From Azoarcus sp. CIB (lineage in GTDB: Bacteria > Pseudomonadota > Gammaproteobacteria > Burkholderiales > Rhodocyclaceae), in NCBI RefSeq assembly GCF_001190925.1, contig NZ_CP011072.1, positions 434,001 through 498,000 on the forward strand: a stretch of 64,000 nucleotides of DNA. Direction: 5' to 3'. The notes under the pieces were generated by a model. It had not been told where the DNA came from. It did no database searches and saw nothing but the letters and a program-made list of their open reading frames with translations. Within the stretch, counting starts at the first letter, position 1. Each line of letters begins with the position of its first letter. The position numbers were made by a program, and so were the translations under genes. Shown here in pieces: positions 6,277-43,450 of this stretch.

Positions 6277-6344
6277 ATTGGTGCGCGTTCGGGGCCAAAA
6301 TTGCACAACTTGACGCACACGACTGAAGGCGCGATTAGCAGGTT

Positions 6345-6443
6345 CCTTCCCCTTCAAGGGGAAGGACAGGATGGGGATGGGTTTCTTGCAGGCGCTGCGG
6401 AATCCACCCATCCCCACCCCAGCCCTCCCCTTGAAGGGGAGGG
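6345..6443. repeat. Composite palindromic repeat (CCCCTTCAAGGGG type)
   Basis: Two 21-bp palindromes, CCTTCCCCTT-C-AAGGGGAAGG at 6345-6365 and CCCTCCCCTT-G-AAGGGGAGGG at 6423-6443, face each other. Between them are inner inverted arms ATGGGGATGGGT and ACCCATCCCCAC, so the whole ~99 bp can fold as one long hairpin. A single related palindrome occurs at 21836-21860 in this window. Such elements sit between convergent genes (here rhlE and nusB) and are non-coding. Confidence 0.8.
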
Positions 6444-6459
6444 AGCTACTGCTACTAGC

Positions 6460-21892: not shown

Positions 21893-22177
21893 TTACTTGG
21901 CTGCCTTCATGTCGGCCTGGCACTTCTTCATGAAGGAGTTCTTCGCTGCGCCGGCGAGCGCCTTGCCGTTCTTGTCGAGGGCCTTCGCCGAGCATTCGGT
22001 GTTCACGGCCTCGGTGTGGCACTTCTTCATGAAGGACGACTTGGCGGCGCCGACGAGCGCCTTGCCGTTCTTGTCGATGGCCTTGGATTCGCACATCGAA
22101 TCGCCGGCGGGGGCCTGCGCGAAGGCCGAACCGGCGACGAACAGGCTGGCGAGAACGGCGGTGATCAAGCGGGACAT
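21893..22177 (-). CDS. PsiF-repeat periplasmic protein
   Basis: 94 residues with a signal peptide (MSRLITAVLASLFVAGSAFA) and two tandem copies of a ~35-residue unit: CESKAIDKNGKALVGAAKSSFMKKC and CSAKALDKNGKALAGAAKNSFMKKC. Each unit has a cysteine at either end, as in the PsiF phosphate-starvation repeat. AAGGAG precedes ATG 22177. A pho-type promoter is not obvious. Function of PsiF proteins is unknown. Confidence 0.85.
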   Translation of the reverse strand: MSRLITAVLASLFVAGSAFAQAPAGDSMCESKAIDKNGKALVGAAKSSFMKKCHTEAVNTECSAKALDKNGKALAGAAKNSFMKKCQADMKAAK

Positions 22178-38370: not shown

Positions 38371-39192
38371 TCACTGCGCGGCGTTGGGGAAGAAGAGCTG
38401 CTCGCCGCCGATCGTGTACTCGGCAATGGCCTTCTGTCCGGTGGGCGAGACGATCCAGTCGATGAACTGCTGACCGAGCTCGCGCTTCACGTGCGTGTGC
38501 TTCGCGGGATTCACGAGGATCACGCCGTACTGGTTGAACAGGCGCTTGTCGCCTTCGACGGCGATCACGAGGTCCTGGCGGTTCTTGAACGACAGCCAGG
38601 TGCCGCGGTCGGCGAGGATGTAGGCGCCGAGCGAGGCGGCCATGTTGAGCGCGGGGCCCATGCCGGAACCGGAGTCGCGGTACCACGGGCCCTTCGCCTG
38701 TTCGAGGTCGATGGCGGCGAGCTTCCACAGCCGCAGCTCGGCCGCGTGGGTGCCGCTCTTGTCGCCGCGCGACACGAAGGGCGCCTTCGCGGCCGCGACC
38801 TTCTTCAGCGCCTCGACGATGTCGCGCCCGCCGGTGACCGTGGCCGGATCCGCCTTCGCGCCGACGAGGATGAAGTCGTTGTACATCACGTCCTTGCGCT
38901 CGACGCCGAAGCCGTCGGCGACGAATTTCTCCTCGGCGGCGCGGTCGTGCACGAACACCACGTCGGCGTCGCCGCGGCGCGCCGTGTCCAGCGCCTGCCC
39001 GGTGCCGAGCGCGACGACGCGCACCTTGACGCCGGATTGCTGCTCGAAGCGCGGCAGGATGTGGCCGAAGAGGCCGGACTGTTCGGTCGAGGTCGTCGAG
39101 GCGACGGTGATGAACTTGTCTTCGGCATGGGCGCCGGCGATGCCGAGCAGGCAGGCGCAGGCGAGCAGCAGGGGGCGGAACAGACTTGCCAT
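38371..39192 (-). CDS. tupA: Tungstate/molybdate-binding periplasmic protein (TupA-like)
   Basis: 273 residues with a signal peptide (MASLFRPLLLACACLLGIAGAHA). The mature start FITVASTTSTEQSGLFGHILPRFEQQSGVKVRVVALGTGQAL is the TupA signature, including the TTSTEQSG oxyanion site; FVHDRAAEEKFVADG and FVSRGDKSGTHAAELRLW also match. It supplies tungstate or molybdate to an ABC importer. No tupB or tupC follows; the next minus-strand genes are ubiU onward. Divergent partner was evidently the ModE-like regulator, now separated by the island. Confidence 0.9.
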   Translation of the reverse strand: MASLFRPLLLACACLLGIAGAHAEDKFITVASTTSTEQSGLFGHILPRFEQQSGVKVRVVALGTGQALDTARRGDADVVFVHDRAAEEKFVADGFGVERKDVMYNDFILVGAKADPATVTGGRDIVEALKKVAAAKAPFVSRGDKSGTHAAELRLWKLAAIDLEQAKGPWYRDSGSGMGPALNMAASLGAYILADRGTWLSFKNRQDLVIAVEGDKRLFNQYGVILVNPAKHTHVKRELGQQFIDWIVSPTGQKAIAEYTIGGEQLFFPNAAQ

Positions 39193-39506
39193 GAAGGGTC
39201 TCCGTGGTTCTTTATCGATCGCGCCTCGCGCGCGGGTGCAGGAATCCTTGTATCAAAACGTGCGCGGGCGGGTGCGGATGGCGTGGTGTGTGATTCGGCG
39301 ACTTATGCATGGTCGTGCATAGGTGGGTTCGTCGCCACGTCGGGTGCGGCAGCGGTCGCGGATCGGGGAATCGTGTGATCCGTCTGGCGCGGCATAGGCC
39401 GGTCCGGCAGAAATGCATGTTGCTTTTTGTGCAGGCGCTGTCGGCGCGCACGGGCACGCGCAGCGCCGCAGCCAGGGGGGCGGGGATTTTCGGTTAAGCT
39501 CGATGC
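39193..39506. promoter_or_regulatory. Original tupA/regulator divergent spacer with a palindrome
   Basis: About 314 bp between tupA and the truncated regulator copy. TATGCA (39304-39309) and TGCATA (39316-39321) form a perfect 6-bp-arm inverted repeat with 6-nt spacer, a candidate binding site for the ModE-like regulator. No gene recognised; antisense open frames here are shadows. Confidence 0.4.
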
Positions 39507-39631
39507 ATGGGCGTGACACTTGATTACCGTTTCGTCGCCGGCTGCGAGGATGCGCAGCCGGGCGGCCCCCTGCAGCTGAGCAATCCGCTGACGGCGATGC
39601 TCGACGCGATCCGTGTGCAGGGCTCGATCGC
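39507..39631. repeat. Left 125-bp direct repeat bounding the accessory island
   Basis: Identical except one base to 42347-42471, offset exactly 2840 bp. It begins at the regulator ATG and ends at ...GGCTCGATCGC. No recombinase gene lies between the copies. Confidence 0.9.
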
Positions 39632-39650
39632 CCGGCATGCGTCACCGTAA
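39507..39650 (+). pseudogene. Truncated 5' copy of the ModE-like regulator gene
   Basis: ATG 39507 begins the same reading frame as the intact regulator at 42347 and matches it through SIA at codon 42, then runs into RHASP and a stop (47 residues total). DNA identity to 42347-42471 covers 125 bp with one mismatch (T at 39521 versus C at 42361). The remnant lacks most of the HTH and is not functional. It marks the left edge of the inserted segment. Confidence 0.85.
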
Positions 39651-39857
39651 TCGATCCGCCAACAGTCGAATCCCTTCCAATGCGCCGAGCCGTAAACTGA
39701 TGGCGCTTGGCTTTCCAATCTGAGGTTCGGTGGGGTTGATGCGAATCAGCGTGCCATTGGCGCGTTCGCCAAAGCCGCGTACCGTCGGAATCGCTGTGCC
39801 CGCGCCGAGTTCGATGATCACCGAACTTTCAACCGGACCCAGCCATTGCTCCAGTGA
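39642..39857 (-). pseudogene. 3' fragment of a Sir2-family NAD-dependent deacylase gene
   Basis: On the minus strand the frame ending at TGA 39642 reads SLEQWLGPVESSVIIELGAGTAIPTVRGFGERANGTLIRINPTEP... GALEGIRLLADRLR. This is the C-terminal ~70 residues of a Sir2/CobB-like protein, including the V-x-E-x-GAGTAIPTVR core and the INP segment that closes the NAD site. The catalytic His region is missing, and upstream of residue ~70 the sequence becomes unrelated (nuclease promoter region). Non-functional remnant. Confidence 0.75.
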
Positions 39858-39873
39858 TTCATGAGTTTGAGAT

Positions 39874-40752
39874 ATGCTCTTGGAGCAAAATTTGTTCACG
39901 CATATAGACAATTCGAGGATGGCTGCAAATATGCAATATGCAAATACGGCGGCTCTGGGCGGATTCTTTAGACGCTGGCGAAGTTGCTATCCACATCCTC
40001 TGCCTGTTGTGGAAGGCTCGACCTTTTTCAACGAACGAATCTCGTGCTTTCTCGCCGCGTTGCGTGGCCATTTGGGTGTGAGCGTAGGTGGCAGGACAGC
40101 GGCTGAGATCACGTCTGGTCCCGATTCGAACAGACTGAGTGCATGGTTCGATTCGTTGCGCGAACCCATGTCACGGGTCCGGGCCAGTGGGGTCTTCTGC
40201 AATCCGTGGAAACAAGCGAGACTCGGGCGCGATGAGGTGCGCAATGCCGCTGTCCTCGCCTGGCTTCTCGATCCGGTTGGCGATCACGGGTTGGGTGCGG
40301 TGTTTCTTCGCGGGCTTCTTGACGAGGTACACCGTTGCCAGTCGGACCTGCGACCATCTTTTGCCGCCGATCGCGTAGTCGTCCAACGCGAAAGCTATCC
40401 GGAGAACGATCAAAGTAATCGCGTCGACATCGAGATCGATTCCTCGCAGTTCTACCTTCTGATTGAAGTGAAGATTGATGCTCCAGAGGGGGCCGGGCAG
40501 TTGGAGAGCTATGGTGAAATCGCCGAAAGGCAGGCCGGAAAGCGGCCATGGGCGATTGTGTTCCTGACCAGGAACGGGGGGAAGTCGGTTACCGCCGCCA
40601 AGTATGAATCACGAATTGTGTCATTGTCATGGCGAAAACTTGCTGCGAAGCTCCGGCGCGCACTGAATCGAGGCATGGAACATAGCGGTGCTGATGACGG
40701 TTTTGCCAGGCGGCTAGCGGAAATGTACGTGCGCCATGTATGTGACTTATAA
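39874..40752 (+). CDS. PD-(D/E)XK nuclease superfamily protein
   Basis: Up to 292 residues. The centre has the nuclease core NRVDIEIDSSQFYLLIEVKIDAPEGAGQLESYGE: Asp in RVDIEI and E-V-K with the following Gln are the PD-(D/E)XK metal and catalytic residues. The preceding part (WKQARLGRDEVRNAAVLAWLLDP, AVFLRGLLDEV) resembles the PDDEXK_4-like family of unknown function found in defence-type islands. Three starts are possible: 39874, 39919, 39931; the promoter at 39880-39908 argues for one of the later two. Lower GC than the chromosome. The next gene begins 15 bp downstream with AAGGAG, so the two form an operon. Confidence 0.75.
   Translation: MLLEQNLFTHIDNSRMAANMQYANTAALGGFFRRWRSCYPHPLPVVEGSTFFNERISCFLAALRGHLGVSVGGRTAAEITSGPDSNRLSAWFDSLREPMSRVRASGVFCNPWKQARLGRDEVRNAAVLAWLLDPVGDHGLGAVFLRGLLDEVHRCQSDLRPSFAADRVVVQRESYPENDQSNRVDIEIDSSQFYLLIEVKIDAPEGAGQLESYGEIAERQAGKRPWAIVFLTRNGGKSVTAAKYESRIVSLSWRKLAAKLRRALNRGMEHSGADDGFARRLAEMYVRHVCDL
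39880..39908 (+). promoter_or_regulatory. Sigma-70-like promoter for the nuclease operon
   Basis: TTGGAG (39880-39885), 17 nt, TATAGA (39903-39908). Both boxes are close to consensus and the spacing is ideal. It would place the start of transcription at about 39914-39916, which favours nuclease starts at 39919 or 39931 over 39874. Confidence 0.55.
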
Positions 40753-40767
40753 ACAAGGAGTCAATGA

Positions 40768-41409
40768 ATGAGCAAGAACAGGGATGCAGGGCGGTTGATT
40801 CTGGAAGAACTCCCGATGTTCAACGAAGCTGCGCGCCTCTTCGAGAACGAGATTCAGCCTGATATACAGGACGCTTTCAACGACACCGTGAAGGAATGGG
40901 CGATACAGCACAATTGGTCTTCAAATGTTGAGTGGGACTGGACTCCTGACAGCAAGACGTCGCTGTGGCTCGCTCCGCCGGGGTGGAGTTTCAAGGATCA
41001 AGACGGAGATGACGACGCGAACCCGTGCTTTTGGTTCGGGTGGTCCAATAGGATTGGATCCGAGAATTATCACCTTGTTGACCTTTGCGGCTTGAGCACG
41101 GATGGCATGGCCTTCTGGTTCTGGCTGGATCCAAAGGCCTTCAGCGGTGTACGTGCACTGAAGTCAGCAGTGAAGCCCCTCGTTGCCGAATATGAGAAGC
41201 GGCTTGCGCAGCTCGGATTTGTTGTCGACGATGTAAATTTCTATCTCCCCGTCCGTCTGGACCCTGCAAAGTTAGCCGATGCGTGGGGCGACGACGCATA
41301 CGATGAGCTCTTTGCACCGCTGAAAGACGCTCTCGACAAGTTGAAAGAGGCGCAGCCGATGTTCAATGAGCTTGTCGCTAAGATTCCGGGTAGAAAAACC
41401 ATGGCCTGA
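40768..41409 (+). CDS. Unknown partner protein of the nuclease
   Basis: 213 residues, acidic and rich in Trp (SNVEWDWTPDSKTSLWLAPPGWSFKDQDGDDDANPCFWFGWSN). No signal peptide, no membrane segment and no recognised domain. C-terminal third has Leu-rich heptad-like helix (LKDALDKLKEAQPMFNELVAKI) that could be a coiled coil. ATG 40768 follows AAGGAG. Its tight linkage to the nuclease suggests a specificity, inhibitor or target-recognition role, but that is inference. Confidence 0.7.
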   Translation: MSKNRDAGRLILEELPMFNEAARLFENEIQPDIQDAFNDTVKEWAIQHNWSSNVEWDWTPDSKTSLWLAPPGWSFKDQDGDDDANPCFWFGWSNRIGSENYHLVDLCGLSTDGMAFWFWLDPKAFSGVRALKSAVKPLVAEYEKRLAQLGFVVDDVNFYLPVRLDPAKLADAWGDDAYDELFAPLKDALDKLKEAQPMFNELVAKIPGRKTMA

Positions 41410-41536
41410 CGAATGCGCTACATCCAATAGCACCCGCGGGGCGTCGGAGATTGTCGATTCTCCGGCGCCCTCAGCTCCGAGTCGTCTCGTCCATGATCGA
41501 GTGCATTGTCTCGTATTCCGTAGTGCTCCTCGCCCG

Positions 41537-42217
41537 TTACACCCGAATCGAATAGGCTTCGACCAGCCGAAAAAAGGCCTTTGCGTGCCCCTTGTCATCG
41601 CCTCCGTGCCAGCGGAAGGAAAGCGACTCGGTTTCGATTGCTTCATCGATGAGAATCATCGGCATGCAGCTGTATCGTATTGCTTGAGAGAGAGTTTTTT
41701 CGAGCGCCAGCGCAATGTGCTGCCAGCGTTCGGTACGAATTGGCGGCAATCGAAGCAGCCGTGAAAAATCGGCGTCGCCACCGAACCGGGGCGGAGCTTC
41801 AGTGGGTTCCTGATCCGGTGCGGTCTCCGCGTGCAGGGAGCAGAGCGCCTTCATCCGTTCTTTACTTGGCGTAACTCCCGGTAGGCCGCATTCTTCGCAG
41901 ACGGATTGAGACAGTGAACCAGCCATCCCGATCAGGCCACGAATGTAGTCGTCGCCGCCGTGGATGTGGACGCGTAGGCTGCCGAATTTCTCTTTGACCT
42001 GAACAGCTACGGCATCGAGACCGGTTTCGCGAGCGTGCCGCTCGATCTCCGCACACAACACGTCGAGCAGATCAAACCAGCCGTCGCCGCAGGTGAAGCC
42101 CCAGCACATCGCGGTCGTCTGCGCGGTTCCGTGACGGTCGCGGAAAATGCCGGGGTAACGGCTGCACAGTAGGTCATCGAGTTCCTGCCTCATTGCCCTC
42201 GTCTCCACATAAGGCAT
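41537..42217 (-). CDS. Conserved hypothetical protein of the island
   Basis: About 226 residues from MPYVETRAMRQELDDLLCSRYP. Striking blocks are AMCWGFTCGDGWFDLLDVLCAEIE, QVKEKFGSLRVHIHGGDDYIRGLIGMA and a CEECGLPGV zinc-type pair. I have the impression of a widely scattered accessory-genome family but cannot name a function. The frame is open to 42289; starts at 42217 and 42193 are both plausible. Codon use and GC match the other island genes. It converges on the nuclease partner gene. Confidence 0.7.
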   Translation of the reverse strand: MPYVETRAMRQELDDLLCSRYPGIFRDRHGTAQTTAMCWGFTCGDGWFDLLDVLCAEIERHARETGLDAVAVQVKEKFGSLRVHIHGGDDYIRGLIGMAGSLSQSVCEECGLPGVTPSKERMKALCSLHAETAPDQEPTEAPPRFGGDADFSRLLRLPPIRTERWQHIALALEKTLSQAIRYSCMPMILIDEAIETESLSFRWHGGDDKGHAKAFFRLVEAYSIRV

Positions 42218-42346
42218 TGCCGGAAACCGGGACGCCTGACTGCAATGATCGCTCAAGGAGCCGTTGACCGGCAAAGCTACAGGAGGCAACGTCCTAAGTT
42301 AGAACCGCATGGAAAGGGTGGCATTTTTTTCGGGTAAGCTGTCCCG

Positions 42347-42471
42347 ATGGGCGTGACACTCGATTACCGTTTCGTCGCCGGCTGCGAGGATGCGCAGCCG
42401 GGCGGCCCCCTGCAGCTGAGCAATCCGCTGACGGCGATGCTCGACGCGATCCGTGTGCAGGGCTCGATCGC
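42347..42471. repeat. Right 125-bp direct repeat (5' end of the intact regulator)
   Basis: Second copy of 39507-39631 with a single mismatch. It is the start of the complete regulator gene, so the insertion rebuilt an intact gene on its right side. Upstream of it the sequence (ending TTTTTTTCGGGTAAGCTGTCCCG) is only partly like the region upstream of the left copy. Confidence 0.9.
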
Positions 42472-43450
42472 GAAGGCGGCGGAGCAACTCGGGGTGTCCT
42501 ATCGCCATCTGTGGGGCGTGCTGCGGCGGCACGAGGCGGCGTTCGGCCAGGCGCTGATCGCCGGCGGGCAGGGGCGCGCGGCGCGGCTGTCGGCCTTCGG
42601 CGAGCGCCTGTTGTGGGCCGAGAAGCGGGCGCTGGCGCGGCTGCTGCCGCAGGCGGAAACCCTCGCGGGTCTGCTCGACCGCGAGCTGCTGCTGGCGGTG
42701 GATCCCGGACTCGACGTGCTGCCGACCGCCGCGAGCCACGATCTGCTGTTCGGCGGGCTGCGCGACGCGATGTTGCGCGATGCGCGGGTGCTGCTGGACG
42801 TGGAGTACGTCGGCAGCACGCAGGCGCTGCAGCGGCTCAACGCGGGCGGATGCACGCTCGCCGGCATCCACCTGCCGCTCGACGACGACAAGCTGTGCCG
42901 GCGCGGATCGCTGATCCACGCTGCGATCGGACGCGAGCTGCGCCTGGGCGTGCACAAGCTGATCCGCTTCGCGCGGCGCGAGCAGGGCCTGATCGTCGCG
43001 CCCGGCAACCCGCATGGGCTGGCGGCGCTGGCGGATCTGGCGCGGACGGACATCGTGTTCGTGAATCGGCTGAAGGGTTCCGGCACGCGCCTCGTGTTCG
43101 ACGAGCTGCTGGCGCGGGCGCGCATGGCGCCGGGCGCGATCGCGGTGTATGCGACCGAGGAGCACACGCACCTGTCGGTCGCGGCGCACGTCGCGGCGGG
43201 GAGTGCCGACTGCGGCTTCGGGCTGCGCGCGGCGGCGCAGCGTTTCGGCCTCGACTTCGTGCCGCTGGTGCACGAACAGTATTTCCTCGTGTGCCTCAAG
43301 GATGGGTTGGAACTGCCGGGTATGCGCGCGGTGCTTGCGGCCCTGCGCGGCGAGGGGTTTCGTCGCCTCGCGGAGGCGCAGCCAGGCTATGACGCGAGCG
43401 GCGCGGGCGAGATCGTGTCGTTGCGGCGCACGCTGCCCTGGTACAAGTAG
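42347..43450 (+). CDS. ModE-like HTH regulator with PBP-type ligand domain (molybdate/tungstate response)
   Basis: 367 residues. The N-terminus (PLTAMLDAIRVQGSIAKAAEQLGVSYRHLWGVLRRHE) is a ModE/LysR-type winged helix. The C-terminal ~220 residues are a periplasmic-binding-protein-like domain (LLLAVDPGLDVLPTAAS, RLNAGGCTLAGIHLPLDDDKLCRR, NRLKGSGTRLVFDELLA, ATEEHTHLSVAAHVAAGSADCGFGLRAAA). Such regulators sense Mo or W oxyanions or the cofactor and control uptake genes. In the ancestral order it would be divergent from tupA. The island has replaced its original upstream DNA, so its own promoter may differ. Confidence 0.88.
   Translation: MGVTLDYRFVAGCEDAQPGGPLQLSNPLTAMLDAIRVQGSIAKAAEQLGVSYRHLWGVLRRHEAAFGQALIAGGQGRAARLSAFGERLLWAEKRALARLLPQAETLAGLLDRELLLAVDPGLDVLPTAASHDLLFGGLRDAMLRDARVLLDVEYVGSTQALQRLNAGGCTLAGIHLPLDDDKLCRRGSLIHAAIGRELRLGVHKLIRFARREQGLIVAPGNPHGLAALADLARTDIVFVNRLKGSGTRLVFDELLARARMAPGAIAVYATEEHTHLSVAAHVAAGSADCGFGLRAAAQRFGLDFVPLVHEQYFLVCLKDGLELPGMRAVLAALRGEGFRRLAEAQPGYDASGAGEIVSLRRTLPWYK

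Follow-up and report, generated by a model that had tools for sequence, protein, structure and literature searches.

We analysed a 64,000-nucleotide stretch of the genome of Azoarcus sp. CIB (contig NZ_CP011072.1, positions 434,001 to 498,000; hereafter the window, from whose first letter all positions are counted), in which an insert carrying a candidate defence gene pair lies between a tupA-like gene and a regulator gene. A previous reading of the sequence, made without database searches (the sequence-only reading), had described the insert as an accessory island bounded by a direct repeat of the regulator's 5' end. Here we compare the locus with that of related genomes, and weigh how the insert may have arrived.

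The repeat and its flanking genes

The following features define the locus and the two ends of the insert:

38371..39192, minus strand: tupA-like gene for a tungstate ATP-binding cassette transporter substrate-binding protein (Pfam PBP_like_2), the conserved left neighbour
39487..39506, plus strand: last 20 bases before the ATG of the left copy, a regulator promoter segment of local type (0-2 differences from the eight closest relatives)
39507..39631, plus strand: left copy of the 125-bp block, a truncated regulator 5' end fused to insert DNA (sequence comparison)
42327..42346, plus strand: last 20 bases before the ATG of the right copy, a promoter segment of the type found in another clade (TTTTCGGGTAAGCT...CCG), forming a hybrid junction with the local coding region (sequence comparison)
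42347..42471, plus strand: right copy of the 125-bp block, the 5' end of the intact regulator gene (sequence comparison)
42347..43450, plus strand: intact regulator gene, 367 amino acids, with an HTH_1, weakly ModE-like N-terminus and a PBP_like domain (Pfam)

As first described, the two blocks are identical at all but one base (124 of 125), with an offset of 2840 bp; the sole mismatch is T at 39521 and C at 42361. Similarity begins 20 bases before the ATG (39487 and 42327), giving a pair of 145 bp at 94.5% identity, which is the only near-identical repeat in the window when this is compared with itself (E 1e-10, at least 60 bp). The left copy has a normal upstream region and is interrupted after codon 41, from where it reads into insert DNA; the resulting truncated frame has 47 codons (39507-39650, TAA at 39648-39650), and the sequence past 39631 is unlike the native continuation of the regulator gene. 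The right copy is the start of the intact regulator. The earlier description of a truncated left and an intact right copy, and of an insertion that leaves the regulator with a complete 5' end, is therefore confirmed. So is the lower guanine-plus-cytosine (GC) content between the copies, which in 400-base windows is approximately 0.52-0.61 inside the insert and approximately 0.65-0.74 outside it.

The regulator had also been called ModE-like, a label that stands only weakly since its score against NCBIfam TIGR00637 is 32.6 bits, below the cut-off of 98.5 bits. Likewise, the tupA-like protein scores 230 bits against NCBIfam NF041772 TupA, below the 400-bit cut-off. The regulator gene is 95% identical in DNA to those of genomes G001 and G016. 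Compared with G016, its first 125 bases differ by 1.6% and the remainder of the gene by 5.8%; compared with G001 the two parts are alike, at 5.6% and 4.9%, respectively.

Empty sites in relatives and a mosaic right junction

We compared the locus across a sample of 17 genomes of the genus. The regulator was present in 16, this one included, and gave weak partial matches only in the other (G010). The named relatives were mostly Aromatoleum (8 of 9 loci), the ninth being Azoarcus sp. Aa7. In 13 of the 15 other regulator-bearing genomes tupA adjoins the regulator, 282-376 bp away and with a single block, and this is the empty site that the sequence-only reading had predicted for some relatives. 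These genomes include the closest relatives, and the insert is absent from G016, the nearest of all. The two remaining genomes, G008 (A. anaerobium; insert at L041 1503-6000) and G014 (insert at L066 5103-8701), have about 4.5 kb and 3.6 kb, respectively, of other genes between tupA and the regulator, again without a second block. The genes in these two inserts encode TetR-type regulators (Pfam-tested in G008) and pyruvate-phosphate-dikinase-like proteins (Pfam-tested in G014), together with what we take to be a nitrilase-like protein in G008. The interval between tupA and the regulator thus acquires additional genes in more than one lineage, but the repeat was observed in Azoarcus sp. CIB only.

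A second block was not found in any of the 15 other regulator-bearing genomes among the candidates scored (up to 7 and up to 40 per genome), where a second block of this strength would be expected to appear. Matches of 25 bp at G012:C1:2365055 and of 25-28 bp in loci L033, L034, L037 and L040 were too short to be counted as second copies. The search was extended to mobile DNA: positions 42290-42480 had no match in the phage or plasmid collections, and two exact block patterns had none in IMG/VR, and on this basis a phage or plasmid attachment site was rejected as the identity of the block. The idea that other cargos might be flanked by the same block thus found no example among the scored candidates or in these collections. 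These collections are limited to a single genome for each species, or to phages and plasmids that have names, so that absence from them is weak evidence.

The block differs from that of G016 at three (left copy) or two (right copy) of 125 bases, and the two copies differ from each other at one. Since the copies differ less from each other than from G016, the duplication probably postdates the split from this relative.

Upstream of the ATG, 7 of 20 bases differ between the left and right copies, six of them consecutive, compared to 1 of 125 bases in the coding part (Fisher p = 2.5e-6). The 20 upstream bases of the right copy match the regulator gene starts of G004, G006, G007 and G011 at 18 positions and that of G008 at 17, but those of the eight closest relatives at only 11-14. 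We searched for the right-promoter pattern in 297 genomes of the family (one genome per species, 12 of the 17 genus genomes among them). Without mismatches, it occurred at the same four gene starts and in the right copy described here, and nowhere else; allowing up to two mismatches added four places, one of which is the regulator start of G013. The reversed pattern, used as a control, had one match in the 297 genomes. In contrast to the promoter, the coding part is of local type in both copies: both carry T37, which is absent from the eight closest relatives, and the coding duplication is therefore one of local sequence. At position 15, where the left copy has T and the right copy C, the eight closest relatives and, by eye, the rest of the alignment have C, so that the left copy, now free to decay, may have mutated there. 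The right copy therefore combines a promoter of the other type with coding sequence of the local type, changing from one to the other close to the start codon.

A 14-base motif, TTTTCGG(T/G)TAAGCT, lies six bases 5' of the ATG in both copies (39487-39500 and 42327-42340) and the 15 aligned relatives keep it before the regulator with two changes or fewer; it is perhaps a promoter element or operator.

Taken together, the acquisition is real, recent and lineage-specific. It is ordinary in kind, and its junction is unusually legible.

Genes carried by the insert

Four open reading frames (ORFs) were compared with protein families, and from left to right they correspond to the end of a Sir2-family gene, a PD-(D/E)XK nuclease-like gene, a partner gene and an accessory gene:

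39642..39911, minus strand: ORF of 89 amino acids whose stop is 10 bp from the left junction; at about 39642-39855 it retains the C-terminal end of a Sir2-family gene (tblastn to Sir2 genes)
39874..40752, plus strand: PD-(D/E)XK nuclease-like protein, 292 amino acids, first gene of the pair (Pfam PDDEXK_4, 66.8 bits, cut-off 22.3)
40768..41409, plus strand: partner protein, 213 amino acids, no known domain found; directly 3' of the nuclease in the five loci compared
41537..42193, minus strand: accessory protein, about 218 amino acids (the ORF reaches 42289), from a sparse family whose paralogues also occur at other places in this genome

The insert had been said to carry nuclease-type genes. 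One such gene was indeed recognised, through PDDEXK_4, and the other three ORFs were not. Consistent with the earlier statement that no recombinase is present, none of the four matched a recombinase or transposase family in Pfam, PADLOC, NCBIfam or PHROGs, in a scan of these ORFs that extended neither to shorter frames nor to the DNA on the far side of tupA and of the regulator gene. There is no inverted repeat at the ends of the insert, nor a short exact target duplication, and together with the lack of a transposase family this led us to reject a tandem or simple repeat or a transposon as a description of the structure. Promoter and terminator scans gave no more matches than were obtained with shuffled sequences. 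Matches to proteins of solved structure were marginal and were set aside, the lowest E value, 0.0095, coming from the accessory protein, which partially matched aminodeoxychorismate synthase.

The nuclease also matches PADLOC models named PDC-S26, for a candidate defence gene, over its residues 110-269 (best E 1.9e-20), covering only model positions 31-188 of 400; this name was not found in a literature search. Residues D185, E198 and K200, which we take to be the catalytic ones, are invariant in the five nuclease sequences aligned. The nuclease and its partner stand side by side in four further loci (L086, L087, L088 and L089): on the Azotobacter plasmid pAcX50d beside a tyrosine recombinase, in Proteus mirabilis H63, where partial type I restriction genes lie about 1 kb away, in G040 beside hsdM, and in G373 beside a serine-hydrolase gene. 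The partner was found in 3 of 250 genomes of the order, this one included, and in three records of the plasmid collection, two of which are Proteus entries with identical scores. A single-sequence structure model of the partner had a mean predicted local distance difference test (pLDDT) score of 42. The nuclease of the island had no match in phages, and relatives of the nuclease and partner were not found on viral contigs in a search that reaches close relatives only. Judging from neighbourhood and family, the pair is most likely a small defence cassette. In two of the further genomes this candidate pair has type I restriction genes nearby, and in a third it is borne on a plasmid.

The 89-residue ORF had no Pfam match itself, and its Sir2 remnant is 76% identical in amino acids over 54 residues to a gene of G247 that matches Pfam SIR2, whereas the other Sir2 loci compared reached up to 56%; this comparison covered part of the Sir2 matches returned by a search with the insert DNA. 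That search found matches in 20 of the 297 family genomes which, apart from the full match of this genome to itself, were short (at most about 250 bases) and fell in the Sir2 or accessory part, with two candidates scored per listed genome. The accessory protein had no match in Pfam, PADLOC, NCBIfam or PHROGs at E 0.1. Members of its family were found in 6 of 150 family genomes (E 1e-10) and in 3 of 321 class genomes (E 1e-15), this genome being counted in both. It has several paralogues in Azoarcus sp. CIB, at G000:C1:1586257-1588858 and 1950004-1950741 (L070 and L113), and in G066 (L112) a family member is found near genes that presumably correspond to TniB and TniQ. In G247 a gene for an accessory-protein relative (57% identity over 104 amino acids) lies 34 bp past the end of the Sir2 gene, in the same orientation. 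In the insert the corresponding sequences lie at opposite ends, and closure through the block would restore the order seen in G247. This may be a hint, albeit a weak one from a single genome, of a circular intermediate.

Elsewhere in the window, the same self-comparison returned a second direct pair of 74 bp at 88% identity (21912-21985 and 22011-22084, starts 99 bp apart) and a palindromic self-match at 6336-6454 (75%).

Origin of the insert

Three origins had been offered for the island, namely a passenger element, recombination with imported DNA, or a new type of integration site at the 5' end of the regulator. Of these, recombination with imported DNA fits best, because the promoter of the right copy is of another type and its coding part is local; a new integration site is less likely. 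We therefore consider it rather probable, on balance, that the regulator's 5' end was the place where recombination captured imported DNA, either through a single crossover of a circularised fragment or through one-sided homologous and illegitimate joining. The imported fragment would have been approximately 2.7 kb long and would have ended in the start of a related regulator gene, whose 5' end could serve as homology at the chromosomal regulator. By one route, the fragment would close into a circle and enter by one crossover; by the other, its right end would pair by homology and its left end would be attached non-homologously at a point 125 bp inside the gene. In both cases the outcome would be, from left to right, a truncated copy, the cargo, and an intact regulator with the imported promoter. 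The donor, the choice between the circular and the one-sided route, and the origin of the local type in both coding copies are parts of this account that we infer.

Several observations weigh against capture of imported DNA. Further upstream than position -20, the right copy has no resemblance to any of the 15 relatives, those of the other clade included, so that the link to this clade rests on 20 bases. The left copy's own upstream region also failed the similarity test against G008 and G014, however, and since the region changes fast, dissimilarity there carries little weight. Blocks of the other clade are 78-81% identical to those found here, and such a donor should leave about 20% divergent coding bases in one copy, yet none are seen. 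For both copies to have local-type coding sequence, the crossover would have to fall very close to the ATG, or one copy would have to be repaired to the local type, or the donor would have to lie outside the sample. No donor combining the insert, the other-type promoter and the regulator was found in the 297 family or 17 genus genomes, which represent each species by one genome. One-sided capture is also described as usually deleting host DNA rather than duplicating it (PMC3240628). As for the circular route, G247 is the sole locus with a Sir2 gene among nine loci with accessory relatives outside the insert, and its accessory relative is not clearly the nearest, given one in G077 that is 61% identical over 111 amino acids. 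A ComEC-type gene was found, but it says little, since 10 of the 14 control genomes, among them E. coli, have one too.

The chief competitor, which we hold to be unlikely but deserving of serious attention, is a decayed site-specific element of the tyrosine- or serine-recombinase type that inserted in the regulator 5' end, kept the N-terminus, supplied its own promoter, and has lost its recombinase or relied on one in trans. Its anatomy matches that of some Streptococcus integrative and conjugative elements (ICEs) in rbgA and one in ebfC, in which the N-terminus is unchanged and the promoter replaced (PMC4701971). The tyrosine recombinase beside the gene pair on pAcX50d speaks for it too, as does the Sir2-accessory order of G247 that closure of a circle would restore. 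This reading is weakened by the finding that none of the four ORFs matches a recombinase family, by the failure to find a second block among the scored candidates of the 15 relatives, and by the absence of block matches in phages, in plasmids and among the exact patterns in IMG/VR. Moreover, the repeat of 125-145 bp is longer than the usual 2-60 bp of recombinase sites (PMC4701971), and an element arm identical to what this strain itself encodes, even at T37, is difficult to account for unless gene conversion followed. A mobile cassette that has no recombinase, a circle carrying the promoter and 5' end of the regulator that would use host homologous recombination at this conserved gene start for entry and to give the host gene a new working promoter, is a more novel proposal that we rate as decidedly improbable.

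Two separate events, in which unequal exchange or slippage duplicated the start of the regulator and foreign DNA entered between the copies at a different time, would account for the near-identity of the coding copies, which is what a tandem duplication of recent date would show. However, no duplication free of cargo was found among the scored candidates of the 15 relatives, a pure duplication leaves the other-clade type of the 20 bases upstream of the right copy unexplained, and two rare events would be needed at one place; we regard this as improbable. Direct repeats flanking a cargo might also recall transposition with target duplication. Yet the insert has neither a transposase family in its four ORFs nor an inverted repeat at its ends, and target duplication leaves the clade-specific difference at 7 of 20 bases unexplained and is contradicted by the mosaic right copy, making transposition very hard to credit. 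Finally, that the duplication arose in assembly is an explanation that no observation favours and to which we give almost no weight, because the genome is a single contig of 5,257,030 bp and the two copies each have their own, different flanks. Apart from matching itself, the insert had one reported match within this genome, 70% identical over about 240 bp.

If imported DNA was captured in this way, the locus would be a clean and recent natural example of foreign cargo entering a chromosome without a recombinase of its own, in which one can read the empty site and the duplication as well as the point where other-type sequence gives way to local sequence, and in which the promoter of a host regulator was replaced during the insertion. 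The mosaic promoter and the conserved nuclease-partner pair are the points worth keeping.

Known systems share parts of this anatomy. Integrative elements in the 5' ends of genes include Streptococcus ICEs in rbgA, ebfC and ftsK, and SpyCI in mutL (PMC4701971). Like the insert, such elements keep the N-terminus of the target, replace its promoter in some cases and have a direct repeat at their boundaries. Unlike it, they bear a recombinase or are decayed forms of elements that do; the insert has no match to a recombinase family in its four ORFs and a longer repeat, and none of the 15 relatives was seen to use the site again. PAIusp, a small island (about 4 kb) between aroP and pdhR that has been contrasted with large islands having integrases and direct repeats (PMC7142922), is a loose parallel only. 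For the cargo itself, plasmid pAcX50d of Azotobacter chroococcum has the same two genes in the same order, spaced by 14 bp there and by 15 bp here, and its nuclease and partner are 47% and 42% identical in amino acids to those of the insert; unlike the insert, this pair resides on a plasmid, beside a tyrosine recombinase and near toxin-antitoxin genes.

Closer in mechanism to the capture that we favour is homology-facilitated illegitimate recombination, reported in three competent species (PMC3240628) and proposed for the immunity arrays of the Vibrio type VI secretion system (PMC5361080). The resemblance would lie in one homologous end with the other joined without evident homology, and in the addition of genes lacking a homologue in the recipient while the displaced part of the old locus stays in place. 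The difference is that a deletion in the recipient generally accompanies such events (PMC3240628), whereas host sequence is duplicated here. In E. coli conjugation, 56 of 60 recombinants that were sought as one-sided events proved to be partial duplications, and the 14 duplications that were sequenced, of 109-950 bp, were explained by a single crossover of a shortened circular molecule (PMC3240628). As in that E. coli case, a partial duplication of the homologous locus flanks the insert, at 125-145 bp in Azoarcus sp. CIB, with no dedicated recombinase; the E. coli events, however, involved a laboratory plasmid, whereas the insert described here is a natural one with a divergent promoter.

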